DNA of 64,000 nucleotides, taken from NCBI RefSeq assembly GCF_001553935.1, contig NZ_CP014232.1:434001-498000 (forward strand). The letters run 5' to 3'. The DNA is from Actinomyces oris (GTDB lineage: Bacteria > Actinomycetota > Actinomycetes > Actinomycetales > Actinomycetaceae). The position numbers were made by a program, and so were the translations under genes. Shown in pieces: positions 16,834 to 64,000 of this stretch. The first letter of the stretch is position 1. Every line of letters begins with the position of its first letter. A model generated the notes under the pieces. The model saw only the letters and a program-made list of their open reading frames with translations. It had not been told where the DNA came from and searched no databases.

Positions 16834-16868
16834 GCCCCCATTGAACCGCACCGTCTTCGCGCTTCCAC

Positions 16869-16874
16869 TAGGCT
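16869..16874 (+). promoter_or_regulatory. Likely -10 box for the ROK kinase (leaderless)
   Basis: TAGGCT ends 7 nt before the GTG start at 16882, placing the transcription start at the start codon. No ribosome-binding site is present. The -35 is unclear: TTGAAC at 16841 is 22 bp away. Confidence 0.4.
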
Positions 16875-16881
16875 CGCGGCC

Positions 16882-17637: not shown

Positions 17638-17681
17638 CTCCCGTTACTCCGTCCGTCGCCGGAGCCCTCCCCGGAGCGGGC

Positions 17682-18386
17682 TCAGTCGAGCCGGCCTCCC
17701 TCGAGGCACTCGACGCCGTCGACGCCGTCGAGCCCGGAGAGGGCCTCGATGAGGTTGACGGCGGGGCGCTGCCCGTGGAAGCGCATGACGGCGTTCATGG
17801 TGCGGCCGTGCTCGCCGCGAGTCACCTCGGTCTCCTCCAGGGTGGCGGTGAAGCCCGATGCGGTGGCGACCTGGAGGATCTCTGGCATGACGGCGCTGCC
17901 GATCTCGTAGTCGATGCGCACGGTCACCTCGCCGCGGCGGCGCTGCAGCCGCGAGGTGAGAGGGCCCAGGAACAGGACGACGACGTAGTCCAGCGCGACC
18001 GCCGTGGCCGCCAGGGGGATCATGCCCGCCCCGCAGGCCATGCCGATGGCGGCGCTGAGCCAGACGGTCGCGGCGGTGGTCAGGCCCCGGACAGTGTCGT
18101 TGTTGACGAAGATGACCCCGGCTCCCAGGAAGCCGATACCGGAGACGATCTGCGCGGCCACACGGCTGGGGTCCACTGCAACATCCGAGCCGGTGATCGG
18201 GGCGAAGCCGTAGGCGGACACGAGGGTGAACAGGCACGAGCCCAGTCCCACCAGGACGTGCGTCTTGACGCCGGCGTCCTTGTGGCGCAGGTGGCGCTCG
18301 GCGCCCAGCGTCAGGCACAGGACGAAGGTGGCGAGCATCGCGACGACCTGGACCCCCACGTGGTTCAGGCTGAACAGCGTGTCCAC
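17682..18386 (-). CDS. MgtC/SapB family membrane protein
   Basis: A 234-residue protein with four to five N-terminal membrane helices and a soluble C-terminal domain of about 80 residues. Family landmarks are TLGAERHLRHKDAGVKTHVLVGLGS, written here in part as TLGAERHLR, plus IVSGIGFLGAGVI and VRGLTTAATVW. MgtC proteins support growth at low Mg and modulate F-type ATPase or phosphate handling in some pathogens. The GTG 18386 start is chosen for the AAGGGAG ribosome site about 6 nt upstream; in-frame extensions upstream lack similarity. Divergent from the TPR gene. Confidence 0.88.
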   Translation of the reverse strand: MDTLFSLNHVGVQVVAMLATFVLCLTLGAERHLRHKDAGVKTHVLVGLGSCLFTLVSAYGFAPITGSDVAVDPSRVAAQIVSGIGFLGAGVIFVNNDTVRGLTTAATVWLSAAIGMACGAGMIPLAATAVALDYVVVLFLGPLTSRLQRRRGEVTVRIDYEIGSAVMPEILQVATASGFTATLEETEVTRGEHGRTMNAVMRFHGQRPAVNLIEALSGLDGVDGVECLEGGRLD

Positions 18387-18578
18387 ACCGGCTCCCTTCC
18401 GTGTCGTCACCGTGCCTGTCCTGCCGGCAGCCGCCGGCCCCCTGCCGGCCCGCTGCCAGCACAGCGACGATTCTAAAGGAGCCCTTGGCCGGGCGCGCCT
18501 TTGGTGATGTCTCCCCATCGCGGCGGCGCTCAGGCACCGTTTAGCGTGAGCACACCATCTTCCCCCTGTTCCTGAGGC

Positions 18579-20417
18579 TTGTCAGACGTGTTGCTCTCCC
18601 CCTGCGCCACTTCCGAGGGAGCTGCTCGCGCCGGTCGGCTGCTGGAGCTCAGTGAGCGCCTGGCCGAGTCGGGCCGTCGGGGGGAGGCTTTGGATGCCGC
18701 ACGGGAGGCCTGCCAGGCTCTCCGGGACCTGGCCCGGCTCGATTCAGGCACGTACCTGCCAGATCTTGCCGAGGGGCTGTCCGTCATGGCGGACCGCCTG
18801 CGCGAGGCCCGCCACATGCGTGAGGGGGTTGCGGTCTCGCAGGAGACGGTCCGGCTCCGACGGCGCCTGACCCGGCACGACTACGACGCCCACGCCTCCG
18901 GGCTGGCGCAGGCTCTGTGCCGCCTCGCCGTCGACCTGAGCGCTTCCGGCGATCTGCGTGACGCCCTGGCGAGCGCTCAGGAGTCCGTGGACCTCTACCG
19001 GGGTCTGCGCCGGGATGGTCCCTTCGACGAGGAGACCGGGTTGGCGCAGGCCCTGGTCACGCTCGCCTGCTGCCTGAGTGAGTCCGGTCGGCCGAGCGCC
19101 GCTTTCATCACCGCCCAGCAGGCCCTCACTGTCCGACGGCGTCTGGTCCGGGCCGATCCGGATGTACACACGCCCCGACTCGCAGCGGACCTGGCACGTC
19201 TGGCTCCCAGACTGCGCACGGTGGGCTATGTCGATGAGGCCCTCGAGATGGCCCGGGAAGCCGCGGGTCTCTACCGCCGCCTCGATGAGGAGGAGATCGG
19301 TTCCTGCACCGGCGATCTTGCCGGAGCTCTGGAGGTGCTGGCCGCCTGTGGGGCCGCCGTCGGGCGCCGAACCGAGGCACTGGAGGCGGCCGAGGAGGCC
19401 GCTGCACTCTACCGGGGACTGGCCCGCCGCACGCCGGCGCTCTCCTCGCCGAAGGCCGCCCATGCCCTGGCGACACTGGCTCGGCGCCTGAGTGACGTGG
19501 GACGGCACCGCGAGGCACTCGCCGCGGGCGAGGAAGCAGTCAACCTCGCTCGCGCTCTGGCCCACAGCGCCCCCGACAGCCATCTGCCTGACCTGGCCGA
19601 CACCCTCACGGTCCAGGCCGCCTGTCTGCGTGACGGCGGCAGCCTGAACCGCGCTCTGGCTTCGGCGCGGGAGGCGGTCAGCATTCGACGCGCTCTGGAG
19701 CACAGCCGCCCCAGCACTGAGACCCCGGCCCTGGCTGAGTCCCTGTACGTCCTCGCCGTCTACCTGTACACGGCCGGGCAGCTGCAGGAGTCCTTCGCGA
19801 TGGCCTGGGAGGCCATCGACATCTACCGGCAGCTGGTCCGTACCAACCCTGCCCCTCATACCGCCGACCTGGCTCGGGCGCTCAACATCCTCACCTTGAA
19901 CCTCAGCCGGGCCGGGCGTGCGCACGAGGCCCTGGCTGCGGTGCAGGAGGCGGTCACCTTCTACCGGAGCCTGGCCCAGATCGATCCGACCGCCTACAAG
20001 CCGGACCTGGCGGCATGCCTGCACAACCTGGCCACGTGCCTGGGTGACGTCGGGGACCGCTCTGCCGCGCTCGCCGCGATCCGAGAGACGGCGGAGCTCC
20101 GTCGGGAGCTGGCAGCGCGCGACCCAGCGACGCACGCCCCGGCGCTGGCCCCGTGCCTGCACCGGCTCACCAAGCGCCTGGCCGAGGCCGGTCACCGAGG
20201 CGAGGCCCTGGAGACCGCACGGGAGGCGGTCGCCGCCTACCGGAGCCTGGCCCGCAGGCGCCCGGAGGACTTCGGCCGGGGGCTCGCCGGCGCGCTGCGA
20301 ACCTATGCGTCAGTCCTCGAGTGGGCGGGCAGGAAGGCCGACGCCGCCCGCATCCGCCAGGAGAGCGAAGCCATGACGGAGGAAACGGCCTTGGAGGACT
20401 CCATCCGGGGATTCTGA
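18579..20417 (+). CDS. Protein of about twelve tandem 46-residue TPR-like repeats
   Basis: A soluble 612-residue protein composed almost wholly of helical repeats. Units begin with EAL-like motifs (EALDAA, EGVAVS, DALASA, AAFITA, EALEMA, EALEAA, EALAAG, RALASA, ESFAMA, EALAAV, AALAAI, EALETA) spaced about 46 residues apart. The shared pattern is EALxxxxEAVxLYRxLAxxxP followed by LAxxLxxLAxxLxxxG. There is no signal peptide or enzyme domain. It is a likely protein-binding scaffold; partner unknown. The start may be TTG 18579 or GTG 18588. The repeats are diverged, so the array is not a recent expansion. Confidence 0.8.
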   Translation: MSDVLLSPCATSEGAARAGRLLELSERLAESGRRGEALDAAREACQALRDLARLDSGTYLPDLAEGLSVMADRLREARHMREGVAVSQETVRLRRRLTRHDYDAHASGLAQALCRLAVDLSASGDLRDALASAQESVDLYRGLRRDGPFDEETGLAQALVTLACCLSESGRPSAAFITAQQALTVRRRLVRADPDVHTPRLAADLARLAPRLRTVGYVDEALEMAREAAGLYRRLDEEEIGSCTGDLAGALEVLAACGAAVGRRTEALEAAEEAAALYRGLARRTPALSSPKAAHALATLARRLSDVGRHREALAAGEEAVNLARALAHSAPDSHLPDLADTLTVQAACLRDGGSLNRALASAREAVSIRRALEHSRPSTETPALAESLYVLAVYLYTAGQLQESFAMAWEAIDIYRQLVRTNPAPHTADLARALNILTLNLSRAGRAHEALAAVQEAVTFYRSLAQIDPTAYKPDLAACLHNLATCLGDVGDRSAALAAIRETAELRRELAARDPATHAPALAPCLHRLTKRLAEAGHRGEALETAREAVAAYRSLARRRPEDFGRGLAGALRTYASVLEWAGRKADAARIRQESEAMTEETALEDSIRGF

Positions 20418-50081: not shown

Positions 50082-50891
50082 ATGTCTCCCCAACCTTGGG
50101 TGCTCGGCGCCGTGGCGCTCGGCTCCGTTGCGCTCATCGCCGGCCCGGTCTCCGCGTGGACAAGGCGCTACGTGCGAGAACCCTTCAAAGACGAGGGCGA
50201 GTCTAACGCAGGCGCGCGCTCCGAGACGGCCACCTCAGAAAACGCTGCGGATGGCACCACAGCCCGTGCAGGGGGCACCACCGAGCCACTCTCAGAAGCC
50301 TCAGGACCTCCCGCCTCGCTTGAGTATCCGACGCTCAAGCATCCCGGCCTCCTGGGCACGGCACCACAAGGACTACTGGCCCTGACTCTGTGCTTCCTGT
50401 GCCTCTGGTGGGGCAGTCGGATAGGCACCACCGCCGCGACTCTCACTGCCATCCCCGTGTACGCGCTGCTCGGATGCGCCGGAAGTGTCGATGCCGTGGC
50501 GCGCCTACTCCCCAACCGCCTCCTAGGGGCGACGACGGCCTGGCTGACTTCATGCGGCATCGTTGCGGTCATCTTGGATCCCAGCAGGGCACATTCGGCA
50601 CTCACTGCCGTGCTGTGCGCACTTTCAGCCGGCGGAATCAGCCTGCTGCTAGCGCTCTTTCGTAGCGGCCTGGGACTGGGAGACGTCAAACTGACCGCAG
50701 TGATCGGTCTCTGGCTGGGATGGTTCGACCCCTGGATGCTCGTCTTCGGACTGTGCATCGGAGTCTTCCTCGGCGGGATCGCCGCACTGTTCCTGCTCAT
50801 CACCCGTAGGGCTTCACGCAAGGACCCCATGGCCTACGGCCCATACCTCATCGCAGGAGCCCTGCTCACCTGGCCGCTGGCGATCGTTTGA
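50082..50891 (+). CDS. A24-family prepilin peptidase (TadV/CpaA type)
   Basis: A membrane aspartic peptidase that would cut the leader of Flp and TadE/F-type pseudopilins at a G-x bond. The two catalytic aspartates are recognisable in SVDAVARLLPNR and GLGLGDVKL. About seven hydrophobic helices are present after a polar 70-residue segment following the first helix. The N-terminal methyltransferase domain of PilD is missing, as in TadV. It heads the Tad gene set. Confidence 0.85.
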   Translation: MSPQPWVLGAVALGSVALIAGPVSAWTRRYVREPFKDEGESNAGARSETATSENAADGTTARAGGTTEPLSEASGPPASLEYPTLKHPGLLGTAPQGLLALTLCFLCLWWGSRIGTTAATLTAIPVYALLGCAGSVDAVARLLPNRLLGATTAWLTSCGIVAVILDPSRAHSALTAVLCALSAGGISLLLALFRSGLGLGDVKLTAVIGLWLGWFDPWMLVFGLCIGVFLGGIAALFLLITRRASRKDPMAYGPYLIAGALLTWPLAIV

Positions 50892-51096: not shown

Positions 51097-51882
51097 ATGC
51101 TCGTGCTCACCGGTTCCCAGTCTCAGACGAACGCGACCAAGGACTGGGATCTGGGCGATGTGGCGTCCATACTCGAGCAGTCTCACCAGGCACCCACGTT
51201 GCTGCTGTGCCGAACTGGATCAGACGAGCACGCTGCCCGAACCATTCAGGGAGTCTTCAAACGCAGGGACCTTGGTGTCCTGGCCTTGGACGAACCTGAG
51301 ACTCGTTTCCGCGCCTTGGCCTACTGTCTCACCCAGCTTCACCCGCGGGCTTATGGTCAGGCCCCAATGGTTGTCGAGGCGCTGCAGCCTACACTACGAA
51401 CGACAGTTGCCCTCACCTCTGTCACTAAGCTGACCAACCCCTCACCCACGATCGGCCAGCATCTGCAGTCAATGATGCCCGGCTCTCGCTTTGCCCTCAC
51501 CTTGGGGCAAGGCCAAAGCCGCGTCACCAAGGTGAAAGCTGTCACCTGGGACCGGCCCCCACAGGGGACACTGGCGATCTGGGCCGCCGATGACAAGCAG
51601 AACCGGGTCACAGGAAGTTTACCTTCTCTGGGCATTCACCGTGAACCCTTACTTTCCGTATCCCACACCTGGCCGGCTAAGTGTTGGGCCGAGATGACGG
51701 CGCTCATTGCCGATCCCGGACCGCTCGTGTCACAGACACTTGCTCAGCTATCTCAGACGTTCTGCACATATTGCGGACACATGAGTTTACCTCAGGGGTG
51801 TCTGCTGTGCGGTACGTGGCCCAACATGTCAGCTTCGACGCTCCACACGTCAACCTCTCACCTCTACAAGGAGTCCCGATGA
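51097..51882 (+). CDS. Tad-linked hypothetical protein with C-terminal zinc ribbon
   Basis: I do not recognise this 261-residue protein. It is soluble, and the N-terminal part has alternating beta and helical stretches (APTLLLCRTGSD, VLALDEPETRFRAL). It contains a C-terminal CTYCGH-x(7)-CLLCG four-cysteine knuckle near residue 230 that could bind zinc. Its stop overlaps the cpaB start (ATGA), so it belongs to the Tad operon. About 205 bp without a gene precede it and may contain the operon promoter. Confidence 0.6.
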   Translation: MLVLTGSQSQTNATKDWDLGDVASILEQSHQAPTLLLCRTGSDEHAARTIQGVFKRRDLGVLALDEPETRFRALAYCLTQLHPRAYGQAPMVVEALQPTLRTTVALTSVTKLTNPSPTIGQHLQSMMPGSRFALTLGQGQSRVTKVKAVTWDRPPQGTLAIWAADDKQNRVTGSLPSLGIHREPLLSVSHTWPAKCWAEMTALIADPGPLVSQTLAQLSQTFCTYCGHMSLPQGCLLCGTWPNMSASTLHTSTSHLYKESR

Positions 51883-52598
51883 ATCCACGTCAACGACGAG
51901 GCGTCCTCCTCATTCTCGTCACGATCCTCGGTGCAGTGGTGACCTTCGTGGCTGTCTTCAGTTACGTTCAGTCGGTCTCATCCCAGGTGGGCCCCATGAC
52001 AACTGTTCTCAAGCTGTCGCAGCAGGTGACTGAGCTCAAGGAAATCAAAGCGGAGGACGTGGTCTCCGAGCAGGTTCCCAAGCGCTGGGTTCCCGACGAT
52101 GCAGTGCACGACATCAAGGACGTCCAGGGAAAGGTCACGGCGGCCACATACAGCAAAGGCGCAGTGCTGCAGTCCAGCATGCTTCAAGACCCTCCACAGT
52201 TAACAGAGGGATATCGTGAGATATCCATCATGATCGATGCAGAGACAGGCGTTGCCGGCAAGGTAACTCCAGGATCGCGTGTCGACATCGTCGCCACCTT
52301 GGAGGATCCGAACTCTAAAGCCCAAAAGGCTGAGATCATTATTGAGAATGCCCTCATCACTGAAGTCGGCGTTGTGACGAAGGTACAAGAAAAGGACAGC
52401 GACGGTAATTTCTCAGAAGAAAAAGACAGCCTTCCCGTGACCTTCTCGCTGACGCCTGAGCAATCACTCAAGCTTGCCTACGCCGAGAGCTACTCAACAA
52501 AGGTCCGTCTCCTATTGCGCCGCGACGGAGACCAGGGAAGTGCCAAGACCCAAGAATACTCCGCCAACAACGGAACTCCTGCTCAAGGAGCAAGCTGA
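51879..52598 (+). CDS. cpaB: Flp pilus assembly protein CpaB/RcpC
   Basis: A 239-residue protein with one N-terminal membrane helix (about 8-30), an SAF-like domain (IKAEDVVSEQVPKRWVPDD) and the RcpC core (ISIMIDAETGVAGKVTPGSR, VDIVATLEDP). In Gram-negative Tad systems it works near the secretin; in Gram-positives, which lack one, it probably spans the envelope between membrane and wall. AGGAG precedes ATG 51879. It abuts the tadZ fusion gene by one base. Confidence 0.87.
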   Translation: MNPRQRRGVLLILVTILGAVVTFVAVFSYVQSVSSQVGPMTTVLKLSQQVTELKEIKAEDVVSEQVPKRWVPDDAVHDIKDVQGKVTAATYSKGAVLQSSMLQDPPQLTEGYREISIMIDAETGVAGKVTPGSRVDIVATLEDPNSKAQKAEIIIENALITEVGVVTKVQEKDSDGNFSEEKDSLPVTFSLTPEQSLKLAYAESYSTKVRLLLRRDGDQGSAKTQEYSANNGTPAQGAS

Positions 52599-54127
52599 TG
52601 CTGTATCTAGTGACGAACCACGAAGAGACGCGTCAGCAGGTACTGGCGGCCATTGCGGAAGCAGAAGGGATCGGCGAAGTCCGCACGGTGGCCTCGCCCG
52701 AGAAGCTGAGAGAATACATAGATCCCGACGTCACATCATGCGTCTTGGTCGACGAGGCATTGGCGCCGCACGCGGCTATGCCCACCGTTCAAGAGTTTTC
52801 CCGTGCCTACCCACTCATCCCGGTCGTCCTGTTGAGCCGGACTCACACGTCCGAGAGTGTTGTCGCAGCAATGGACTCCGGCGCAAGGACCGTCCTGGCT
52901 CTTCCGTTGTCACTCGAGGAGATAACAAACCGTCTTCTTCCTGTTCTGGCATGGTCACGTGCAGTTCGGAGCGAAGCGTCAAGCAGAGAAGAGCTCACCA
53001 CACGTCGCCAGGGCACGATTACCGCCATCGTGGGCGCCAAGGGAGGTGTGGGAACATCAACGATGGCACTCATGGCTGCAGCGCAACTCGCTCAGGGAAC
53101 TCGCACCTGCTTGGTGGATCTCGATGTCCGTAGCGGCGATCTCGCTGCAATGACAGGTATCTCGGTGCGTCGATCCATCGCCGATCTGGCCGACATAGCA
53201 GCCGAGGCCAGTACACGAGAAATTGCCGAAGTCATGTATCCGCTCCCCGGTGGCATCTCCCTTCTCCCCGCCCCAGAACAGGGTGAAACAGGCGAGGCCC
53301 TTACTGAGTCCGCCACACGCCAGATTCTTGCCATGCTGCGCTACCAGTTCGACCATGTGATTCTGGACTGCGGTTGCCGGCTCGACGACGTTCTGGCCAT
53401 GGGCCTTGACTCTGCCGACCAAGTGCTCATCGTGGCAACGCCCGACGCACCGGCTCTGCGCTCCGTACGTCGCCTGACTGACGCTCTCGATCGGCTCGAC
53501 ATATCACTTGGGCGCTCTTTCGGGCTGGTGGTCAATATGACCACACGGCGACGCGAGATCCAGCCCACCACAGCTGCGAAAATGACCGGAATAGCGTTGG
53601 CCACCAGCGTTCCCGACCTCACAGCACACATCGAGATGGCAGTGAACTCGAACACTCTACTGACCTCGAAAGTCCCCTCGATGGCTAAAGCTGCCCGCTC
53701 TCTGTCCGACAGCATCTCAAGATACACTGCAGCGTCTCCGGATGCCGCTGTCCATCAAACGACCAGTCCGACCAAGTCGACACGACGACGCTGGCTTCGT
53801 CGCACAGAGCGAGGGCAAATCACCGTAGAGTTCCCCATTGTGTTCGCTCTGGCAACAGCCGCAATCTTGATGTGCGTCCAGGCGCTCAGCATCGGGGTGA
53901 CATACATGTATGCCACAAACGCAGCCAACGAAGCGGCACGTGCTTACGGGACTGGTAAGACTCCAACCCAAGTACAACAGGTCGTCGCACAAAAGCTACC
54001 TGACACGTACGTTCAAGGATTGAAGATCACCCGTTCTGGCTCCAACAACGTAACCGTTACTCTTCCCATCCCGTCGGTCATTGACATCACCACTTCCGCC
54101 GACGCCGGAATCGTTTGGGAGAAATAA
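52598..54127 (+). CDS. TadZ/CpaE ATPase fused to a TadE-like pseudopilin
   Basis: A 509-residue fusion. Residues 1-125 form a receiver-like domain and 138-375 a ParA/MinD-type ATPase with deviant Walker A GAKGGVGTST (146-155), together a TadZ that would localise the Tad machine. After a Ser/Thr/Arg linker, residues about 405-509 read RRTERGQITVEFPIVFALAT with a single membrane helix, a TadE-type segment including a G-x4-E prepilin site. No ATG, GTG or TTG exists in frame in the linker, so a separate TadE cannot be started upstream of the helix. The next gene overlaps its stop by one base. Confidence 0.8.
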   Translation: MLYLVTNHEETRQQVLAAIAEAEGIGEVRTVASPEKLREYIDPDVTSCVLVDEALAPHAAMPTVQEFSRAYPLIPVVLLSRTHTSESVVAAMDSGARTVLALPLSLEEITNRLLPVLAWSRAVRSEASSREELTTRRQGTITAIVGAKGGVGTSTMALMAAAQLAQGTRTCLVDLDVRSGDLAAMTGISVRRSIADLADIAAEASTREIAEVMYPLPGGISLLPAPEQGETGEALTESATRQILAMLRYQFDHVILDCGCRLDDVLAMGLDSADQVLIVATPDAPALRSVRRLTDALDRLDISLGRSFGLVVNMTTRRREIQPTTAAKMTGIALATSVPDLTAHIEMAVNSNTLLTSKVPSMAKAARSLSDSISRYTAASPDAAVHQTTSPTKSTRRRWLRRTERGQITVEFPIVFALATAAILMCVQALSIGVTYMYATNAANEAARAYGTGKTPTQVQQVVAQKLPDTYVQGLKITRSGSNNVTVTLPIPSVIDITTSADAGIVWEK

Positions 54128-54537
54128 TGCGTTCAGCAATCATAAGCAACAACGGTCTTGATATCGCGTCGTGCGGTAGAAAGCTGTCACGCCGACTACG
54201 TCGTGACGAACAGGGGATCCTTGATATAGAACTTGTGGCGTTCATTCCAATCCTTGTGCTAGTCACGATATTTCTTGTACAAGGGTTCTTCGCAGTATCC
54301 ACCGTAACGTCGGTGAGTGCAGCCGCCCGAGATGGCGCTCGTGCAGCGATGCTAGGCCGTTCCCCCGAACAGGCGGCACGTGATGCACTTCCTAAATGGG
54401 TGCAGTTGGAGTCCGTGTCGGACACATGCAAAGACAAGCACTGCGTCAAAGTAACCGCCCGCGTACCTATCGGTATTCCATCGTTCACGAGCAAGAATGT
54501 CACAGTGACAAGAACAGCAGACTTCCCCAAGGGCTGA
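54127..54537 (+). CDS. tadE: TadE-like pseudopilin
   Basis: A 136-residue protein with a basic N-terminus ending RRDEQG (Gly30), then ILDIELVAFIPILVLVTIF, giving Glu at +5 after the presumed cut and a single membrane helix. The rest is extracytoplasmic with two cysteines (SDTCKDKHC) that may form a disulphide. ATG 54127 overlaps the fusion gene stop (TAATG). It is probably a minor pilin or assembly pseudopilin. Confidence 0.75.
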   Translation: MRSAIISNNGLDIASCGRKLSRRLRRDEQGILDIELVAFIPILVLVTIFLVQGFFAVSTVTSVSAAARDGARAAMLGRSPEQAARDALPKWVQLESVSDTCKDKHCVKVTARVPIGIPSFTSKNVTVTRTADFPKG

Positions 54538-54538
54538 C

Positions 54539-55828
54539 ATGGCACTCCGAGATCGTATTTCCGTCCCGATTTCTAAATCAACTCGATCCTCCAAAGACAA
54601 GGAGGACCTCGTCACGCTCTACAAAGCTCGCCTTCTTGACGAAATCAATTTGGAGGAGGTTGCCGAGCTTGAGCTGGCTCAGCAACGTGCACGCCTAGAA
54701 AGAGTGCTTTCAAGGCTGCTCTCGCTTGAAGGCCCCGTCATGACGCCTCGCGAGCGCGCTTGGCTCATCAAAAGAGTCATCGATGACGCCGTTGGCTTAG
54801 GAGTGCTCGAACCCCTGATCGCAGATGAAACGGTCACTGAAATCATGGTCAACGGAGTCGACGATGTGTTCATTGAACGTTCCGGCCGAATCGAACGGGT
54901 ACCAACAAAGTTCACGTCGGAAGCCGAGATATACCGGCTTATTGACCGCATCGTCTCATCGGTGAATCGCCGCGTCGACGAATCAAGTCCTATGGTGGAC
55001 GCCCGTCTGGCAGGAGGCGAGCGTGTTAACGTCATTATCCCTCCATTGGCTCTCGACGGACCCAGCATCACCATTCGTCGATTTCCTCAACCGTTCCAAC
55101 TCTCTGACCTCGTCAACCGCAACAGCATTCCTTCAGAAGCTGCCGAATTTCTTGAGGCACTGGTTGCCGCACGTTTCAGCATTCTAGTCTCCGGAGGAAC
55201 TGGCACAGGAAAAACAACCTTCCTCAACGCCCTTTCCGGCGTGATTTCAGACCATGAACGTATCATCACAATCGAAGATGCCGCGGAGCTCTCGTTGCAA
55301 CAGCCTCACGTCGTGCGTCTTGAAGCAAGACCGCCCAATATTGAGGGCAAGGGGCAGGTAACTATCCGTGACTTGGTGAAAAATTCACTGCGCATGCGCC
55401 CCGATAGAATCATTGTTGGTGAAGTTCGTGGGGGCGAGGCGCTGGACATGCTGCAGGCCATGAATACCGGCCATGAAGGCTCACTTACAACAGTCCACGC
55501 CAATTCGCCGATCGACGCCTTAAGCCGGCTTGAAACACTAGCCACGATGTCTGACGTGACACTTCCAGTGGATACCATCAGGGATCAAATCAACGGAGCT
55601 ATTGACATCATAGTACAACTTGAAAGAGATTCTCAAGGCATGCGTCGCGTCAATACGATCGAAACGGTGGTTTCAGAACATCGTGAACACTATTCAACAA
55701 CTGTTCTTTTACGCCACGTCAAGAACGACGGAGAACTGGGGGACCATTTCGAGTTCCGCGGACTGCCCGACAACGTAAAACAACGTCTTCAAAGAAGCGG
55801 CATCCGTGTCGAAACTTCTGCGAGTTGA
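54539..55828 (+). CDS. tadA: Tad secretion ATPase TadA/CpaF
   Basis: A 429-residue hexameric type II/IV secretion ATPase that powers pilus polymerisation. Walker [16 protein letters not shown] is near residue 218, the Asp box ([18 protein letters not shown]) and Walker [14 protein letters not shown] follow, and the His box is [15 protein letters not shown]. The N-terminal [18 protein letters not shown] stretch ([16 protein letters not shown]) is typical of the family. Codons are AT-richer than in the ribosomal genes. Confidence 0.93.
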
Positions 55829-55842
55829 GCGAGGGTCTTACA

Positions 55843-56766
55843 ATGATCGATACGCCATTGATTTTCGTTTGCACGTTAGTCACTTTGATGACTGGCTGTT
55901 TTGCGGTCATCACTTTAAGCAGCAATACCTCGCGGACCAGCGTGATTGAATATGGTCTAGGTGCGACATCCAACAGCAAACGACAGCCACTGAGAGAGTT
56001 GGCATTCAAGTACAACAATCTGTTCTTCAACCTACCATTACGTAGACGCCTGTCTCGGGCTGGACTACGATGGAGTGCACTATCGACTGAGCTAGTTCTT
56101 GGAAGTACGATGTTGCTCGTATACCTGGCATGCCGCCAGTTTATTGGGAATATTGCCGGCATGATTATGGCGCTTTCTACTCCGTTATTTTTCTTTCGTT
56201 GGCTTCAACGAAAGATACTACAACGTACCGAGCGGTTCGTAGACCAACTTCCCGAGGTGTCTAGAACTCTCTCTAACGGGACGTCCGCAGGCTTGTCAAT
56301 AGAGAGGGCGCTTGCACTTGCTTCGCAAGAATCGTCGGATCCAGCTCGAACCGAGCTCCAGCAGGTGGTCGCTCAACTATCCTTGGGGCGATCGTTGGAG
56401 TACGCCATGAACAGCATGTCTGATCGAATGCCGTCCCGTGAGCTCAACATACTCGTGCGCACCATTGTCATCCAGTCTCGGTCGGGTGGTGCTCTTGTCT
56501 CAGCGCTACAGGACATAGCGAGAGCCTTAGAGGATCGAAAGCAACTCCGTCGAGAAGTGCGTACCGCGATATTGAGTGCCTCCGTGAGCGGATACATCGT
56601 TCCTTTCATCGGGATAGCGGCTGTTCTACTGATCAATGCAATGAAGCCTGGGGTTCTTGACGAGATGGCAAGGACAACTTTGGGACAGATTATCCTGCTG
56701 TCCTCACTGTTGTGTATTTTCTCGGGAATCATCCTGATGCGTATATTCTCGCGAGTTGAGGTGTGA
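55843..56766 (+). CDS. tadB: Tad inner-membrane platform protein TadB
   Basis: A 307-residue GspF-type membrane protein. It has two N-terminal helices, a cytoplasmic domain with LPEVSRTLSNGTSAGLSIER and SGGALVSALQDIARALEDRK, and two C-terminal helices. ATG 55843, with GAGGG 7 nt upstream, is preferred over TTG 55825 at the tadA stop. With TadC it forms the platform on which TadA works. Confidence 0.88.
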   Translation: MIDTPLIFVCTLVTLMTGCFAVITLSSNTSRTSVIEYGLGATSNSKRQPLRELAFKYNNLFFNLPLRRRLSRAGLRWSALSTELVLGSTMLLVYLACRQFIGNIAGMIMALSTPLFFFRWLQRKILQRTERFVDQLPEVSRTLSNGTSAGLSIERALALASQESSDPARTELQQVVAQLSLGRSLEYAMNSMSDRMPSRELNILVRTIVIQSRSGGALVSALQDIARALEDRKQLRREVRTAILSASVSGYIVPFIGIAAVLLINAMKPGVLDEMARTTLGQIILLSSLLCIFSGIILMRIFSRVEV

Positions 56767-56768
56767 CA

Positions 56769-57668
56769 ATGCTGCCAGTCATCATTGCTTCTTTGTCCTC
56801 TTTTTTGGTTCTCATGTCTGCGTACGGCGTTCGCATCATTCGGAGAGAAGGCGCCGAAAAGTATGTTGAGGTCACTGCCGGAAGCGACGTCGACTCGCCT
56901 GAAGAAAGACGTCGTCCATTTTATGCTATCATCGACGGCCTTGGATTACGCGCGCAAAGAACCCTTCGAAGGGTATACGGCGAGAAGCGTCTAGACGCGC
57001 TGGGCAAGCGAATCAGGCGTGCAGGTAATCCCGAGAACCTTACTTTGGATCAGTATATTCAAAGAGAATCGGGTTTCATAGTCCTGTCCGCAATCATACT
57101 GGTTCTATTTACGGCAGTGGGGAACATTTACTTAGGAGTCGCGTTCGGACTGCTTTTTTCTACCTGGATGCAGATCTGGCTATTCTACGAACTGCGGCGC
57201 AGGCGAAGTAGGATAGATCGAGACCTACCAGACTTTCTGGACGTTCTGACCGTCACAGTTCGCTCCGGAACACCATTCCGAAACGCGCTCGAGCGAGTGT
57301 GTGGGCACTACGCTAGTCCTCTTTCCGATGAAATGATGACTACACTTCGTGAAATACGAATGGGAGTGCCCTTCAGGACGGCATTCCTCAATGTCAAGGA
57401 CCGATGCGACTCTGACAACTTCGATTCGTTCGTGGTGGCGCTCCTGCAGTCCGAAGAACTCGGCACTCCTATTGCAGATGCACTCCAATCCATAGTAAAA
57501 GAGATCAGAAGCGAGCGTGCAGAACAAGTCCGTCAAGCCGCCGCGAAGACATCACCGAAGGTCGCTTTCATTGCAACAGTCACAATGATGCCTGGCACTA
57601 TGATTCTCATGATGGGAGGAATGTATTACGCGTATGGAGATGTGTTTAGCAAGATTTTTAAAGGGTAG
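56769..57668 (+). CDS. tadC: Tad inner-membrane platform protein TadC
   Basis: A 299-residue paralog of TadB with the same fold: RDLPDFLDVLTVTVRSGTPF, then EELGTPIADALQSIVKEIRS and C-terminal helices ending near MMPGTMILMMGGMYY. ATG 56769, just after the tadB stop, is used; GTG 56763 is in frame. Confidence 0.88.
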   Translation: MLPVIIASLSSFLVLMSAYGVRIIRREGAEKYVEVTAGSDVDSPEERRRPFYAIIDGLGLRAQRTLRRVYGEKRLDALGKRIRRAGNPENLTLDQYIQRESGFIVLSAIILVLFTAVGNIYLGVAFGLLFSTWMQIWLFYELRRRRSRIDRDLPDFLDVLTVTVRSGTPFRNALERVCGHYASPLSDEMMTTLREIRMGVPFRTAFLNVKDRCDSDNFDSFVVALLQSEELGTPIADALQSIVKEIRSERAEQVRQAAAKTSPKVAFIATVTMMPGTMILMMGGMYYAYGDVFSKIFKG

Positions 57669-58916
57669 ATGATGTCAGAGGTGACTTCAGGCGTGTTCAA
57701 ACAGTCCCATTCTCAGTTGATTCTAAATCGTTCGCTCTCGGGGGCGGTCGGTATGGTCTGTGATGTTCGGCTTGGAATACTACTTGCCTGTGAAATCGCA
57801 TTGTTGACCGCCGAAGCAAATTTCTTTGACATTCTACAGATTCTATTGACGATGGCGATGAGCTGGCTGCCATTGCATCTGTTTTCGAAGTTCCCACAAG
57901 CGCTAGTGAATGGATTTTATTTCCCTCTTTCGGATCTCGCGATTAGTGTGATCTTGATATTCTCTCTGCGCGAGAACTACTACGGAATTCAGCATCTTCT
58001 ATTCGCTTACATTCTGACTTCTGCGCTTTTAGAGGGACTTCTAGTTAACTTATCATATAAAGTTATCTGGTCTAGCGCCGTCATTGTTGCCTTGGCCTTA
58101 TCGCGCTCTCAGTCACAGACATTGGCGACATCACTTACTGTGTTTGTGGTGCTTTCCTTGGGCGTGGTTTTCGCGATAGTTTTGGGTGATCGTTTACGTA
58201 GCCAGTTTGAAGACATTGATAGACTTACTGAAGAAACTATGAGTATTCGAGCAGAAGAACGGGCTCTTGCAGAACGCCTAGTCATTGCAAGAGACTTACA
58301 TGATTCTCTTGCGAAGAGTGTTCATGGTATTCGTATGTTGGCAGAGACACTGACCGCCGACCTCGAGGAGACTCAGCACCAAGACTCCACTCTAAGTCGC
58401 ACTCTCTTTGAGTCAGCAGATGAAGCTAGCAGGGAGGCGCGTCTTATTCTAGACGGATTGCGCGTCACCGACCATGGGCAAAGTAGCCTATTGGATTGGC
58501 TCATCGATCAAGTATATCGTTGGGGTGCTCGCACGGGAGTCGAGGTTGTCTGTTCTCAAACCAGAGGCAGTTCCGATCACCAGCCATTTTCTTCTGAGGT
58601 TGTATGGCACATCCAACGTATTCTTGGCGAAATACTGACCAACATTGAGAAGCATGCTCACGCAACTACCGTTTTCGTCGATCTTAGCGTCGACTCGACG
58701 TCATTGACACTAGAAATTCGCGACAACGGCATTGGTTTGTCTTCAGGCTGCGTTCACACTCCCGCTGAGGGTCACTACGGAATTGAAGGGATGTTCGAGC
58801 GCGCTCACATCCTCAATGCGACACTGACGATAGATGGCCACTCTGCCGCTGGCGGCGTGCATACCGTCCTGACGGTGCCTCTCGATTCACTGGATTCCGT
58901 TGAAGGAGCAGCATGA
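57669..58916 (+). CDS. NarX/LiaS-type sensor histidine kinase
   Basis: A 415-residue membrane kinase. The N-terminus has about five to six hydrophobic helices without an obvious ligand domain. A coiled linker (IDRLTEETMSIRAEERALAE) leads to the HisKA_3 dimerisation segment ARDLHDSLAKSVHG with His211, and the ATP-binding domain shows NIEKHAHATTV and EIRDNGIGL. It follows tadC directly and overlaps the response regulator (ATGA), so it probably senses an envelope cue controlling pilus genes. Confidence 0.88.
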   Translation: MMSEVTSGVFKQSHSQLILNRSLSGAVGMVCDVRLGILLACEIALLTAEANFFDILQILLTMAMSWLPLHLFSKFPQALVNGFYFPLSDLAISVILIFSLRENYYGIQHLLFAYILTSALLEGLLVNLSYKVIWSSAVIVALALSRSQSQTLATSLTVFVVLSLGVVFAIVLGDRLRSQFEDIDRLTEETMSIRAEERALAERLVIARDLHDSLAKSVHGIRMLAETLTADLEETQHQDSTLSRTLFESADEASREARLILDGLRVTDHGQSSLLDWLIDQVYRWGARTGVEVVCSQTRGSSDHQPFSSEVVWHIQRILGEILTNIEKHAHATTVFVDLSVDSTSLTLEIRDNGIGLSSGCVHTPAEGHYGIEGMFERAHILNATLTIDGHSAAGGVHTVLTVPLDSLDSVEGAA

Positions 58917-59581
58917 AGGTTCTGGTTGTTGATGATAATCCTATTGTGCGTGCAGGTCTTTCGGCGGTATTGGGACGAATGGCAGATGTCAGCGAGATTT
59001 TTGAGGCAGAAGACGCCTTCACCGCACTTGAAATGGCTGCGCTTCATTCTCCGGAGGTCATCCTGCTTGACGTCCTTATGCCGCCAGGACGTTCTGGCAT
59101 CGATATTCTTCCGGAGCTTCCGCAATCTTCCTCAGTCATTATGCTGACATCTACTCAAGATTCGTCAACGATTCGTCTTGCCTTGGAGAGAGGAGCAAGG
59201 GGGTACTTAGTTCACGGTCAACTCGGTACTAACGAGATCTCTGGGGCTATTGAGACCTGTCGAAATGGTGGGTTAGTTCTGGGGCAGGAAGCTGCCGATG
59301 TATTCTTTTGCGACCCACAGAATGAAGAATACAATCCGCTGCTATCAGAACTTTCAGACCGAGAGGCTGAAATTTTGTCATTGGCTGCGCAGGGTTTAAC
59401 GAATCAGGAGATCGCCTCTCGACTATTTCTTTCGGAACGAACGGTAAAAAACTACATCAATGCTACGTACCCCAAGATCGGGGTTCATGACAGGTCTGAG
59501 GCGGTCGCCGCCTGGCACAGGGCGGCAACAGGGCGCCGGCAGGGGCGATCGCCCCAAGACAGGGCTGACCAACACCCGTAG
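58913..59581 (+). CDS. NarL/FixJ-type response regulator
   Basis: A 222-residue regulator. The receiver domain starts MKVLVVDDNPIVRAGLSAVL with phospho-acceptor Asp53 in VILLDVLMPP. The LuxR-type HTH lies at about 145-200 (LSDREAEILSLAAQGLTNQE). A basic 20-residue tail follows. It is the partner of the overlapping kinase. The next gene, the Flp-like pilin, has its own upstream region and is a natural target. Confidence 0.9.
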   Translation: MKVLVVDDNPIVRAGLSAVLGRMADVSEIFEAEDAFTALEMAALHSPEVILLDVLMPPGRSGIDILPELPQSSSVIMLTSTQDSSTIRLALERGARGYLVHGQLGTNEISGAIETCRNGGLVLGQEAADVFFCDPQNEEYNPLLSELSDREAEILSLAAQGLTNQEIASRLFLSERTVKNYINATYPKIGVHDRSEAVAAWHRAATGRRQGRSPQDRADQHP

Positions 59582-59590
59582 TGTTTTCTT

Positions 59591-59620
59591 TTGACAGGGC
59601 ATTCGCAGACCGCATCGCAT
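59591..59620 (+). promoter_or_regulatory. Possible promoter of the Flp-like pilin gene
   Basis: A perfect TTGACA at 59591-59596 lies 10 nt after the regulator stop. The -10 is weak (TCGCAT, 18 bp away), as expected for an activator-dependent promoter. An imperfect GCATC/GATGC inverted repeat overlaps the -10 side. Confidence 0.4.
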
Positions 59621-59678
59621 CCTGATGCAGCGTTTCGGGTGCCGCTCAACTCATCACAAAACAGAGAGGTACATCAAC

Positions 59679-59921
59679 ATGAACAACAACGCCCTGCTCC
59701 GACTCCAGGTCCGCATTCAGACTGCTTGGACGAGGTTGCGTGACAGCGAGCGCGGCCAGGCCGTCGTCGAGTACGTCGGCGTAGCCTTCGTCGTAGTCGC
59801 CATTATCGGTATGATTCTCTACGTCATCAGCGGTGACTCCGGAGAGAACATCGGGAGGTCCCTCGCCGGTAAGATCACCAACGCGATCAACAAAGTCGAG
59901 TTCGGAAGGGACGGTAAGTGA
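59679..59921 (+). CDS. Flp-like type IVb pilin
   Basis: An 80-residue prepilin and the best candidate for the major Tad pilus subunit. The basic leader ends SERG (Gly26), followed by QAVVEYVGVAFVVVAIIGMI. Glu31 and Tyr32 at +5 and +6 match the Flp signature of G, four residues, then EY. One membrane helix and a short hydrophilic tail (GENIGRSLAGKITNAINKV) complete it. ATG 59679 has GAGAGG upstream. A hairpin follows the gene. Confidence 0.8.
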   Translation: MNNNALLRLQVRIQTAWTRLRDSERGQAVVEYVGVAFVVVAIIGMILYVISGDSGENIGRSLAGKITNAINKVEFGRDGK

Positions 59922-60026: not shown

Positions 60027-61754
60027 ATGCCGATGCGTCGTCGTGTGTTTCTGTCCGGATTGTTCCTGACTGGTGTGGGGTTGCCGGTGCTGGCCGGCTG
60101 CAAGCTTCCCTGGCAGTCGAAGGGTCAGGCCGGCTCCACCTCAGCGTCCGCGTCGGCAGACAAGTCGTCAGGGACGGCCGTGCCTGCGGCGTCGGGTGCA
60201 CCTCAGGGCTGGCAGGAGCTCGACGCCCACGTCATGGGTCACCACCTGGGGATCCAGGTCTCACCGCTGGTGCGCCGCGACGAGAAGACCACCGTGCTGG
60301 CCCTGAAGCTGACGCGAGCCAAGGACGACCCCGCAGTCAAGGACATCGCAGATTCCACAAGCGACAGCAGCAGCAACACCTTGGAGGCATCCCGGCCTTT
60401 GTCACGCCCCGGACGCCTGAGGACATCCGACTGGGGCGCCAACGGGGTGCGTCTGCTGGACCTGCCCACCAACCGGGCGTGGCTAGCCACCGCCAGCATC
60501 GAGAACAAGGCCAAAGACAACTACAACAAGCTATCGCTCAAGCCGGGTGAGTCCACCAGCTGCTTCGTGCTCTTCGGGCCGGTGGACGCCAAGGAGGTCA
60601 CCGTCTTCGTCCCCCAAGCAGGATTCGTCACCGTCAACGTCCTCGACAGCAGCGCCGCAGCAGCCTCCGGCATCGACTTCAAGGCCATCGACAAGGCCTT
60701 CGACAGCGTCGCCAACCCCAACTACGAGGCCGAGCCCGACCAGGCGCTGGCCGCCCCGGTGCCCATTGAGCGCTACACCAAGGCCCTGGACGACTCCACC
60801 AGCACCCACACCGGAAGCAAGGACATCACCGTCACCCTCGCATCAGACGTCACCTTCGCCTCCGACTCCGCCGAACTCACCTCGGCCACCGACGCCCAAC
60901 TCCAGACCGTCGCCGGCCAGCTGGCCCAGTACCCCGACGGCGGGACGCTGACGATCGTGGGGCACACCGACGACGTCCAGGACGACGCCTACAACCAGAC
61001 CCTGTCCGAGAAACGAGCCAACGCCGTCAAGACCAGGCTCGAACAGCTCACCAGCCTGGACAAGTGGCAGACATCCGTCTCGGGCAAGGGCGAGTCCGAG
61101 CCCAAGGTCAACGACACCAGCGACGAGGCCCGCGCCGTCAACCGGCGCGTCGAGATCACCCTGACCCCCACCGGCGGCACCACCCCAAAGAACACCACCA
61201 CCCCCACCAACGGCAGCAGCGCGACCCCTAACCCCACCAGCAGCAAGCTGCCCGACCCCAAGGGACCAGTCGCCAAGGGCGCAGACGGCGTCACCGTCAA
61301 GCATGACAACGGCGCCCAGCTCACCATCACCGTCGACCACCTCACCCGCGCCAACGGATACCTCCTCGGACAGCTCCACACCACCATCAACGCGAAGACA
61401 GACTCCGCCCCCAGCGGCCTCGAGCGCTGGCTCGGCGACAAAGAGGTTCTCTTCTCAAACTCCCGCAGCGAGGACGGCAGCAGCGAGCCCACCGAGCGCG
61501 CCGCCGACGGGTTGACCCTCCTGGCCGGAGGCGAACGCATCTACCCCGCCGACTACCTCGACGCCGGCTTCAAGACCCACGTCCCCCTCACCGAGCTCCA
61601 GCTCACTCCCCATATCAAGGCCGGCACCACCACCGTCTGCGTCGTCTGGCCCGACCCCGGCGGCGACACCATCACCCTCGACCACGCAGCACCCACCAAA
61701 CACATCACCGACCTCGCCTTCCGCCTCACCGACATCCCCATCAAAAATACCTGA
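60027..61754 (+). CDS. OmpA-domain lipoprotein in the Tad locus
   Basis: A 575-residue exported protein. The leader MPMRRRVFLSGLFLTGVG ends in lipobox LAGC (Cys25), so it is lipid-anchored outside the membrane. A unique domain (about 60-265) precedes an OmpA/MotB-like domain (about 275-385) with FASDSAELTSATDAQLQ, VGHTDDVQDDAYNQTLSEKR and NRRVEI, which would bind peptidoglycan. A Thr/Pro/Asn-rich linker leads to a C-terminal beta-rich domain. Codons are very C-rich, unlike the genes before and after it. ATG 60033 is an alternative start. It may anchor the pilus base to the wall. Confidence 0.8.
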   Translation: MPMRRRVFLSGLFLTGVGLPVLAGCKLPWQSKGQAGSTSASASADKSSGTAVPAASGAPQGWQELDAHVMGHHLGIQVSPLVRRDEKTTVLALKLTRAKDDPAVKDIADSTSDSSSNTLEASRPLSRPGRLRTSDWGANGVRLLDLPTNRAWLATASIENKAKDNYNKLSLKPGESTSCFVLFGPVDAKEVTVFVPQAGFVTVNVLDSSAAAASGIDFKAIDKAFDSVANPNYEAEPDQALAAPVPIERYTKALDDSTSTHTGSKDITVTLASDVTFASDSAELTSATDAQLQTVAGQLAQYPDGGTLTIVGHTDDVQDDAYNQTLSEKRANAVKTRLEQLTSLDKWQTSVSGKGESEPKVNDTSDEARAVNRRVEITLTPTGGTTPKNTTTPTNGSSATPNPTSSKLPDPKGPVAKGADGVTVKHDNGAQLTITVDHLTRANGYLLGQLHTTINAKTDSAPSGLERWLGDKEVLFSNSRSEDGSSEPTERAADGLTLLAGGERIYPADYLDAGFKTHVPLTELQLTPHIKAGTTTVCVVWPDPGGDTITLDHAAPTKHITDLAFRLTDIPIKNT

Positions 61755-61768
61755 AAGGAACCACCGTG

Positions 61769-62452
61769 ATGCGACGCATGACTCTATGCGACACAATCGC
61801 ATTTCTCAGACGAGCGCTGGCATCACAGCGTGGAAGCATTCTTCCGTATCTTAGCGTTGCCGTCGGCATTGTCGCCCTGATCGCGTTAACCCTGATGACA
61901 GGTTTAGGTGATGTCATTCTGCATCGTCGCGACGCGAGCAACGCTGCGGACGCTGCAGCTTTGGCGGCAGCAGAAGCATGGGGGAATTCGATTGAATCGA
62001 CATATGGAAACGCTGCGAAGTCTCGCAATGAGCACGACTTCTGGGGAAGCGTCGGGAAAGGGCTCGGTTCATTTGCTGGTCCGACGACCAAGCGGGCCGC
62101 CGAGCACTATGCGAAGCTTAATGGTGCCACAGTGACATCCTATTCGGTGAACGAAACCCGAGGTACTGTGACAGTTTCAGTCCGTACGGATTCTGCGATC
62201 GCCTACACCGACGAAAGAATGACTGCAACGTCAACTGCTCAAGTTGTCTTCGATAGAGGCGCATGCCTCACGGGAGGGAAGGTGGGGGTCGAAATGAACG
62301 GGAAGTGCATGACACAACCCGCCTCACACCAATCTACTCCACGTAAGTCCCCTTCTCCTTCGGCGACCCCTCAGGCGACTCCAACCGCAACACCGTTCAA
62401 GCCGCCCACAGAAATGCGTGGATCCGCAAGGATATCAGCCCGACTGGTTTAG
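61769..62452 (+). CDS. TadG-like pilus assembly protein
   Basis: A 227-residue protein. A basic N-terminus with SQRGSILPYLSVAVGIVALI gives one membrane helix, and the segment DASNAADAAALAAAEAWGNS is characteristic of TadG/TadE-type proteins. The C-terminal 50 residues are Pro/Ser/Thr-rich and may span the cell wall. The +5 glutamate of pilins is absent, so processing is uncertain. AAAGGA precedes the start; GTG 61766 is possible. Confidence 0.7.
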   Translation: MRRMTLCDTIAFLRRALASQRGSILPYLSVAVGIVALIALTLMTGLGDVILHRRDASNAADAAALAAAEAWGNSIESTYGNAAKSRNEHDFWGSVGKGLGSFAGPTTKRAAEHYAKLNGATVTSYSVNETRGTVTVSVRTDSAIAYTDERMTATSTAQVVFDRGACLTGGKVGVEMNGKCMTQPASHQSTPRKSPSPSATPQATPTATPFKPPTEMRGSARISARLV

Positions 62453-62599: not shown

Positions 62600-63040
62600 G
62601 TGACGGAAAGTAAAATGAACTACGAAGCAAGTATCACACATTTCTGGTCACTCAAAGCGCTGATTGTTTCGTTCCTACTTCAGCTTCTGTCGCGCTTTGT
62701 TTTGATCCTCATCGTTGTGATCACTCCCCCACTTGCAACCGCCGCACTAAACACTGCTGATTCCATATTCAGTCTCGCGACGTGCTTAAATGCGGTTACG
62801 GTTTTCATTGTCGCGTCGGTCGTTTCGTGGCTATTCAGGTTTAAGCTCCCCACCATTAAGCAACAGATCGTTCACGCAGTGATTCCAACGGTGATAGTCG
62901 GACTACTGTCTACCGGAGTGTACCTCTCTTGGCAGGCCGCCGTAATCATATCCTGTCGTCTACTCCTTTGGGTGATCACGTCGATCGCCGGAAGCTCCTT
63001 AATTGCCGCAAGAATTGAACACCAACAGACTGACTATTAA
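62600..63040 (+). CDS. Hypothetical membrane protein
   Basis: A 146-residue protein with four hydrophobic helices and short loops, starting at GTG 62600 (AGGAG upstream). It resembles no family I know. It begins a new transcription unit and lies 57 bp before a large Flp-headed protein, so it could serve that protein's export or protection. AT-rich codons. Confidence 0.6.
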   Translation: MTESKMNYEASITHFWSLKALIVSFLLQLLSRFVLILIVVITPPLATAALNTADSIFSLATCLNAVTVFIVASVVSWLFRFKLPTIKQQIVHAVIPTVIVGLLSTGVYLSWQAAVIISCRLLLWVITSIAGSSLIAARIEHQQTDY

Positions 63041-63097: not shown

Positions 63098-64000
63098 TTG
63101 AAAGCGATAAATCAACCAAGGTCTCATCAGGAACGAGGATCCGCTATAGTTAGCTATGCTGGCATCCTATGGATAATCGTCATGATTATTCTGTGCATTC
63201 TGCTCGTAGTGGGATACTCGGGAAAATCATTTGGGGGTACATTAGTTTGCAAAATCGCCTCTGCAATTTCTCAGATTGGTGGAGGTCATCCCACATCCTG
63301 TGCAAGCTCTTCTGCATCTTCCTCAGCAAAGAACCCACAAGAACCTACCAAAGCATGTACCAACAAGGAAGTGTCACATAAAGTCGGAGGCAATATTGGT
63401 GTGCTTTTGATGACATTTGAAGGAGATGGATCTATTGTCGTAGAGGAAATGTCAGATGGAACTTATCGGGTAACTGATAAAAGTTCGGCGGCTATTAAAG
63501 TAGGACCAAATGCTGCAGGAGGATTAGATGTTAGTGTGAACGGAAAAAAGTATGGCTCCTATGGTGAGATGGGGACTGGCAGAGGCGTAACCACCGGACA
63601 GGGAGCAACTTACGTAGTTAACTCAGAGAAAGAGAAGAATGATCTTGTCGCTCATCTAACCAGAGAAAAAGTTGTGGATGCCGCAGGAGCGGGGGTCGAT
63701 GCGGCAGGCAACCACGGGGGAAAGGGCATAGGCAGTGTTGGCAGTTGGATTTTCAATGGTGTCGCAGATACGGTAGAGGAGAAAGTTTTCAACTACACTG
63801 CCCCTGAGCCTACCGAATATTATTACACACTAGGCAGAGTAGACTACGCAGGTGCTAGTGCAACCAATAGGAATCCTTTAAATCCCCTTCCCATAGAAAT
63901 CAACCCGGTCGCCCCTTGGAAAGGGGACAATAATGCTGCGGTTAGCTTAACGAGACTCGCAGGACTCCGCATTAACACAAAGGATCATACAGAAACTGTG
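63098..64000 (+). CDS. Large Flp-headed extracellular protein (partial, runs off the window)
   Basis: An open frame of 301 codons from TTG 63098 continues past the end of the window. The first 55 residues mirror the Flp-like pilin of this locus: ERG then SAIVSYAGILWIIVMIILCI, followed by YSGKSFGGTLVCKIASAISQ against DSGENIGRSLAGKITNAINK. After a Ser-rich linker comes a Gly-rich, probably beta-structured domain with EEMSDGTYRVTD and GQGATYVVNSEKEKNDLVAH, a pattern I recall from large uncharacterised actinobacterial proteins with pilin-like heads. The +5 pilin glutamate is replaced by Ser19. Function unknown; the start is uncertain because no strong ribosome site is seen. Confidence 0.65.
   Translation, partial: MKAINQPRSHQERGSAIVSYAGILWIIVMIILCILLVVGYSGKSFGGTLVCKIASAISQIGGGHPTSCASSSASSSAKNPQEPTKACTNKEVSHKVGGNIGVLLMTFEGDGSIVVEEMSDGTYRVTDKSSAAIKVGPNAAGGLDVSVNGKKYGSYGEMGTGRGVTTGQGATYVVNSEKEKNDLVAHLTREKVVDAAGAGVDAAGNHGGKGIGSVGSWIFNGVADTVEEKVFNYTAPEPTEYYYTLGRVDYAGASATNRNPLNPLPIEINPVAPWKGDNNAAVSLTRLAGLRINTKDHTETV

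Follow-up and report, generated by a model that had tools for sequence, protein, structure and literature searches.

The 64,000-nucleotide stretch of the Actinomyces oris genome analyzed here (the window; C1:434001-498000 of the single-contig, 3.04 Mb assembly G000) ends within the gene for a protein that we denote FHP (Flp-headed protein). We propose, with a probability of roughly two in three, that FHP acts in the Tad (type IVc) pilus as a modular minor pilin, with a binding head borne at the tip and a lipoprotein serving as its loader or anchor. What can be read from the sequences themselves is an Flp-type head, an intact gene, a family of relatives, co-occurrence with Tad genes and a neighboring lipoprotein gene. 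The features concerned, in window coordinates, are as follows.

50082-50891, plus strand: A24 prepilin peptidase (PF01478, E 8.7e-8, above the cut-off)
51681-52598, plus strand: RcpC/CpaB (PF16976, E 4.9e-19)
52598-54127, plus strand: in-frame fusion of TadZ and a TadE-like pseudopilin (ParA-type domain and PF07811 in one 509-aa frame; the TadE match is below its cut-off)
54115-54537, plus strand: second TadE-like protein (PF07811, E 2.8e-4, just below the cut-off)
54539-55828, plus strand: TadA ATPase (PF00437, E 6.4e-67)
55825-56766, plus strand: TadB (PF00482, E 7.8e-21)
56763-57668, plus strand: TadC (PF00482, E 6.8e-20)
57669-58916, plus strand: sensor histidine kinase of the Tad locus (PF07730)
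58913-59581, plus strand: LuxR-type response regulator (PF00072 and PF00196)
59679-59921, plus strand: Flp pilin, 80 aa, presumed major subunit (43% identical to FHP head residues 11-64, E 4.4e-6)
60027-61754, plus strand: OmpA-domain lipoprotein-like protein (PF00691, E 5.1e-17)
61766-62452, plus strand: TadE/G-like protein (PF13400, E 1.8e-7)
62600-63040, plus strand: 146-aa protein, by eye a membrane protein (in L030, L031 and L032, relatives sit immediately upstream of FHP; phmmer E 6e-10 to 4e-6)
63098-64000, continuing to window-equivalent 64558 (L002:7098-8558), plus strand: FHP, 486 aa (intact frame; 39-member alignment)
63098-63277, plus strand: Flp-type prepilin head of FHP, with leader MKAINQPRSHQERG, predicted cut after Gly14, hydrophobic helix and, up to residue 60, a post-helix segment (hhalign comparison with 17 Flp pilins; model helices)
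63359-64000, plus strand: first part of the predicted beta-barrel domain of FHP, from residue 88 (domain end at about residue 485, beyond the window)

The first-pass annotation had left the FHP frame open at the window end and named a degraded gene, stopping soon after it, as evidence against its reading. Completed, the frame runs to its stop at 64558 with no internal stop, which rules out degradation. The start codon is TTG, a choice backed by the database protein P0005 (52% identical), the sequence of which begins with Met at the matching upstream place. Of the seven close entries in the database, six (P0003, P0004, P0006-P0009) have the internal Met29 as their start, and the pilin leader is thereby removed. 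The G+C content of the Tad genes and FHP (51681-59921 and 61766-64558) is 48-59% compared to 65% for the window, suggesting either acquisition or a different selection regime for these genes.

Alignment of the FHP N-terminus with the 80-residue pilin at 59679, proposed in the first-pass annotation, was borne out. The sequence motifs that had been quoted are present, with ERG-S-AIVSY followed by SGKSFGGTLVCKIASAI in FHP corresponding to ERGQAVVEY followed by SGENIGRSLAGKITNAI in the pilin, and a search of FHP against its own whole genome (E <= 10) returned FHP itself, this pilin and one 31-residue match at E 1.46. When the heads of 39 FHP family members were compared using hhalign to 17 Flp pilins, all taken from the same or sister loci and including two identical ones from one genome, the probability was 98.7% (E 1.7e-16) over 52 columns. 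By contrast, comparison of the same heads to two TadE profiles and one TadG profile yielded probabilities of 2-59% over only 9-22 columns; because of this difference, we assign the head to the Flp type, and profile comparison lends no support to a relationship with TadE or TadG. By these sequence measures, almost the entire head corresponds to an Flp pilin. In the AlphaFold model, the head contains two helices (residues 13-40 and 46-60).

The family shows the hydrophilic leader ending in Gly, the XXXXE(Y) motif and the hydrophobic helix of Flp pilins. The Gly preceding the predicted cleavage site is present in 39 of the 39 aligned members, and with an A24 peptidase gene in the locus, FHP is predicted to be cut by this enzyme. 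The Glu at position +5 after the cleavage Gly is found in 32 of the 39 FHP members and in all 17 Flp pilins; in the FHP of the window, this position is Ser. By plain counts, the difference between the two groups is not significant (p 0.088). On the FHP family tree, the +5 Glu underwent approximately six changes, and this lability, as opposed to complete retention in the Flp pilins, favors placement of FHP at the pilus tip. Relaxation of position +5 is a mark of the tip pseudopilin GspK.

Single-query searches with FHP (P0001) produced matches in 20 of the 213 genomes of the taxonomic family to which the window belongs, some via a short Flp-like segment only, and a 21-row profile (A1, 453 positions) matched 45 of the 213 at E <= 0.001, many of these being short Flp matches. 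We therefore counted as carriers those genomes in which a match had E <= 1e-10 and extended past A1 model position 100; at least 27 of the 213 genomes qualify under this rule, which leaves out matches confined to the head (for example, in G014, G015 and G040) and a weak partial match in G127. A scan of genome contigs with a single sequence returned 43 pattern matches, none of which was confirmed; the subsequent alignment scan gave nine loci. In an even sample of the class, a long FHP match was present in at least 28 of the 394 genomes, the source genome of the window included (table read by hand), and four of the class-level genomes (G301, G314, G395 and G583) match only from model position 76-86 onward, such that the head may be missing there. 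Several genomes encode two or more divergent copies, some in separate loci, and in G327, at least four copies lie within 9 kb.

The 39-member alignment (A3) includes proteins from the genus and family of the window, from Cellulomonas, Phycicoccus and Flexivirga loci, and from the database; P0013 (a near copy of a member), P0010 (included in A1 and A2), a broken copy from G008, and P0016 and P0017 were left out. The latter two proteins, of 825 and 816 residues, have no pilin head and match the family profile weakly (E 2e-4 and 6e-4). The first-pass annotation asked whether actinobacterial relatives keep an Flp-like head with variable C-termini near Tad genes. The combination of an Flp-like head and a large domain is kept across the actinobacterial relatives. 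Variable C-termini were not borne out: the C-terminal part is a single homologous domain, and matches of most relatives to the A1 profile start in the head and reach at least position 442, with seven (L076, L077, L078, L079, L083, L084 and L086) ending between positions 404 and 427. Nor did the profile searches with the completed protein recover any known family over its length. In Pfam, no family covers the protein across the 39 members, although DUF4244 (E 2.5e-5) and WZC_N (E 0.0055) are each matched by one member; in NCBIfam, no member has a match at E <= 0.01. For the FHP of the window, we took the Pfam match to TraP (E 0.094) and the NCBIfam matches (E 0.15 or worse) as chance. Polymorphic toxins join a constant N-terminus to exchangeable toxin C-termini; in FHP, the C-terminal parts are homologous and match no toxin family in Pfam, NCBIfam or PADLOC, and the suggestion of a toxin or cargo protein with variable ends was accordingly abandoned as the main reading. 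Spread by phages or plasmids was also rejected, given that a tblastn search with P0001 detected no match among 72,556 plasmid and 50,697 phage records.

The association of FHP with Tad, first seen in one locus, extends across genomes. With Tad-positive genomes defined by a match to the TadC of the window at E <= 1e-39 (the next weaker match being 1.2e-22), FHP was counted in at least 26 of the 28 TadC-positive genomes and in at least 1 of the 185 others (Fisher p 6e-30; the genomes are related by descent, so that such p-values overstate independence). The same five of the 36 genera hold both. In the sole counted Tad-negative carrier, G008, FHP is split by an in-frame stop. The L036/L053 locus, probably from the same species, retains the lipoprotein and A24 genes next to an FHP interrupted by a stop, in a genome with no strong TadC match, as if FHP decays once Tad is lost. 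Two TadC-positive genomes, G015 and G040, have no counted FHP match. Outside the count, the Tad-negative G127 shows a partial match to model positions 231-370 (E 3.7e-4), and five genomes (G089, G159 and G190-G192) have a weaker TadC-like match at most 3 kb from a short pilin-like match and lack any long match to FHP; because of the latter group, the link may be specific to this class of Tad systems. Among the 19 FHP loci of the taxonomic family, examined over stretches of 12-20 kb, with L038 covered in part, 12 contain Tad core genes, as does the locus of the window itself, two (L036 and L040) contain only the A24 peptidase, and in five (L030-L034, 12-19 kb) no Tad genes were recognized; L030 and L040 are near a contig end. 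The first-pass annotation had named occurrence far from Tad loci as evidence against its reading, and these five loci do fit that description as far as the stretch is concerned, but the five genomes have TadC elsewhere.

Near-universal presence in this Tad class (26 of 28), together with the bulk of the domain, could also be expected if FHP were an assembly pseudopilin, initiating Tad filaments at the membrane and remaining at their base while its barrel formed a collar through the cell wall. Two genomes nevertheless possess a Tad locus without FHP, and divergent multiple copies, some in separate loci, suit exchangeable heads better than a core component, so that we consider a priming role unlikely. 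Very improbable, in our assessment, is a surface protein that retained a pilin-like membrane anchor and lost entry into the filament. Such a protein could account for the FHP loci away from Tad, and a headless paralogue with a signal-peptide-like start (see below) suggests that export of the domain does not depend on a pilin head; the tight co-occurrence with Tad and the conserved cleavage Gly argue against it.

Structure prediction, which the first-pass annotation recommended for the completed frame, provided a fold for the remainder of the protein: the approximately 400 C-terminal residues are predicted to form a closed beta-barrel with long antiparallel strands, as in outer-membrane barrels. 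The barrel appears in AlphaFold models of two family proteins that are only 19% identical, with mean pLDDT over the five models of 60-71 for the first protein and 64-77 for the second; the best model was used. The closest solved folds are outer-membrane barrels. Foldseek TM-scores are low (0.08-0.31 by query length), and the fold assignment is based mainly on a second comparison using VIA-align. No match was found in a viral fold library (E <= 0.001) or, with the 39-member alignment, among PDB sequences and barrel Pfam families. The 12-stranded autotransporter barrels BrkA, EspP and NalP are 7-8% identical to the FHP domain, with no sequence relation found, and differ in that the FHP domain has no aromatic girdle. 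Cys87 and Cys485 are either both present or both absent in 39 of the 39 members, a pattern that reflects only one or two events on the tree, and are predicted to form a disulfide.

Actinobacteria of this group have no outer membrane. Alternation between the strand faces is strong (face difference 2.10 compared to 0.85 +/- 0.18 in shuffled sequences, 0 of 5000), but a soluble barrel would alternate too, and the interpretation of alternation alone as a sign of a lipid-spanning barrel was dropped. On the hydrophobic strand face, Trp and Tyr make up an average of 3.8% across the 39 members, as opposed to 8.7, 11.7 and 20.5% in the Escherichia coli outer-membrane barrels OmpG, FadL and NanC and 0-3.5% in the soluble beta proteins YceI, LptA and NanM, a crude sequence-window comparison with six yardstick proteins and no coordinates. 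The lipid-facing aromatic girdle of membrane barrels is thus not apparent in the FHP domain. Because the low Trp/Tyr content speaks against a lipid-spanning barrel, we prefer the model of a soluble, disulfide-closed barrel used for binding.

The gene following FHP shares a single base with the FHP stop codon; its product has 228 residues and a lipobox-like start. A lipoprotein gene is located directly downstream of 19 of the 26 FHP genes, of which 18 come from the lipoprotein listing (some lipoboxes identified by eye) and one, in L041, is a relative of LP228 seen in a separate search only. The seven exceptions are the genes in L042, L043, L054, L056 and L058, one of the two in L057, and the first gene in L049, which is followed by a second FHP. 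The lipoproteins were sorted, partly by eye, into three subtypes, the profiles of which are related with probabilities of 93.7% (A-C) and 95.6% (B-C), compared to only 49.6% over 29 columns for A-B. The subtypes go with FHP types: A accompanies the 'VEEMSDGTY' type, B the L039/L040 type and C the L045/L046 type.

A gene downstream of a tip protein could also encode a cognate immunity factor, a putative role that the lipoprotein would have if the pilus served as a contact-dependent weapon delivering the barrel to the membrane of a neighboring cell. The closest solved folds and the pairing of most FHP copies with a lipoprotein gene, along with the extra lipoprotein-like genes that follow the headless paralogue, are in line with an antibacterial tip, and in Myxococcus, Tad pili with exchangeable tips kill prey (PMC12075869, in the part of the article consulted). 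Against this possibility, no toxin, PADLOC or Pfam family was matched, the FHP domain is one homologous family that is not swapped, and its Trp/Tyr content is close to that of the soluble beta proteins; an antibacterial function therefore appears quite unlikely.

Several further observations were made in and around the locus. A headless paralogue of the C-terminal half of FHP is encoded at L002:9489-10562 in the same Tad-linked region of the source genome (bit scores of 46 to A3 and 65 to the L081 member), has a signal-peptide-like start, as judged by eye, and precedes three consecutive lipoprotein-like genes (array L002:9489-12366, window-equivalent 65489-68366). The OmpA-domain lipoprotein-like gene at 60027-61754 has three highly similar relatives in tandem downstream (L002:13807-15696, 15711-17417 and 17432-19111). 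In the TadZ-TadE fusion (52598-54127), the TadZ part combines a receiver-like domain with a ParA ATPase and the TadE-like prepilin site, ERG-QITVEF, is intact, so that the ATPase would be the 'leader' released by the A24 peptidase; the fusion is found in seven of the eight examined cases (the window, L037, L038, L039, L046, L048 and L049) and is absent from L044.

Modular pilins are already known, and comparison with them, limited to the portions of the cited articles that were considered, helps to define what is distinct in FHP. In Streptococcus sanguinis, PilB and PilC similarly join a small pilin module to a bulky grafted domain that is likely exposed at the tip (PMC8179133); FHP instead combines an Flp-type module with a predicted barrel in place of a vWA or lectin domain. 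The modular-pilin census in that article took proteins carrying the IPR012902 head as its starting point, and the main text, as far as considered, contains neither 'Tad' nor 'Flp'. CpaL of Caulobacter crescentus is, like FHP, a Tad-linked pilin-like protein with a large distal domain and a proposed tip location, but pairs a MIDAS-containing vWA domain with a pilin module of the lollipop type, as opposed to the bare Flp-type helix and predicted barrel of FHP (PMC12607857). The Kil tip complexes of Myxococcus xanthus, supported by genetics, also place exchangeable minor-pilin heads on a Tad pilus, with several sets per genome; these are multi-pilin complexes likened to TadE/F/G, whereas FHP is one Flp-headed protein with a lipoprotein, in actinobacteria (PMC12075869). 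The Flp pilins of Micrococcus luteus share the leader, the G-XXXXE(Y) site, the hydrophobic helix and the Tad locus but have 50-80 residues (PMC4322843), compared to 486 in FHP and 412-568 in the A3 rows as entered, some of which are trimmed at the N-terminus. No Flp-headed large protein was found in the considered portions of PMC4322843, PMC10191384, PMC3244431 and PMC13091076, and a survey of literature titles and abstract openings, outside subscription papers, preprints and supplements, found no description of the FHP family. Within this partial coverage, an Flp-type head with a predicted-barrel graft has not been found described.

Taken together, these lines of evidence translate into a model in which FHP would be a complete Flp pilin with a barrel-shaped domain of about 400 residues grafted onto it. 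The hydrophilic leader and hydrophobic helix would insert into the membrane, the A24 peptidase would cut after Gly14, and the Flp helix would then pack into the Tad filament, leaving the bulky domain at or near the tip as a putative ligand-binding head. The Cys87-Cys485 disulfide would staple together the first and last strands of the barrel, and the neighboring lipoprotein may hold or chaperone the domain on the external side of the membrane until loading. We favor this model because the head is of the Flp rather than the TadE/G type and has an invariant cleavage Gly, because FHP tracks Tad across genomes and the lone Tad-negative carrier is broken, and because the barrel recurs in two models, the Cys pair is kept or lost as a unit and a lipoprotein gene follows most copies; the Kil (PMC12075869) and CpaL (PMC12607857) precedents, to the extent considered, favor a tip module as well. 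Weighed against the model are the 5 of 19 loci away from Tad, the TadC-positive genomes without a counted gene (G015 and G040), those with only weaker TadC-like matches and no long FHP (G089, G159 and G190-G192), the partial match in G127, the few events underlying the Cys pattern, the non-significant Glu5 count, and the four class-level genomes in which the head may be missing.

The models raise the question of what an outer-membrane-type barrel is doing on a pilin of bacteria without an outer membrane. One answer, which we regard as a long shot, is that a barrel carried on a monoderm Tad pilus enters another cell's membrane and serves there as a pore, channel or docking port, with the paired lipoprotein protecting or loading the barrel at home; if so, genomes with divergent barrels would keep a set of exchangeable tips, suited to different partners. 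Under the preferred reading, that of a minor pilin with a soluble binding head, the FHP family probably represents the working ends of Tad pili. Flp pilins have been described as tiny proteins; here, one appears to bear a head of some 400 residues, class-wide, with the leader missing from six of the seven close database entries. For the Tad pili of Gram-positive bacteria, FHP offers a concrete candidate for the working end.
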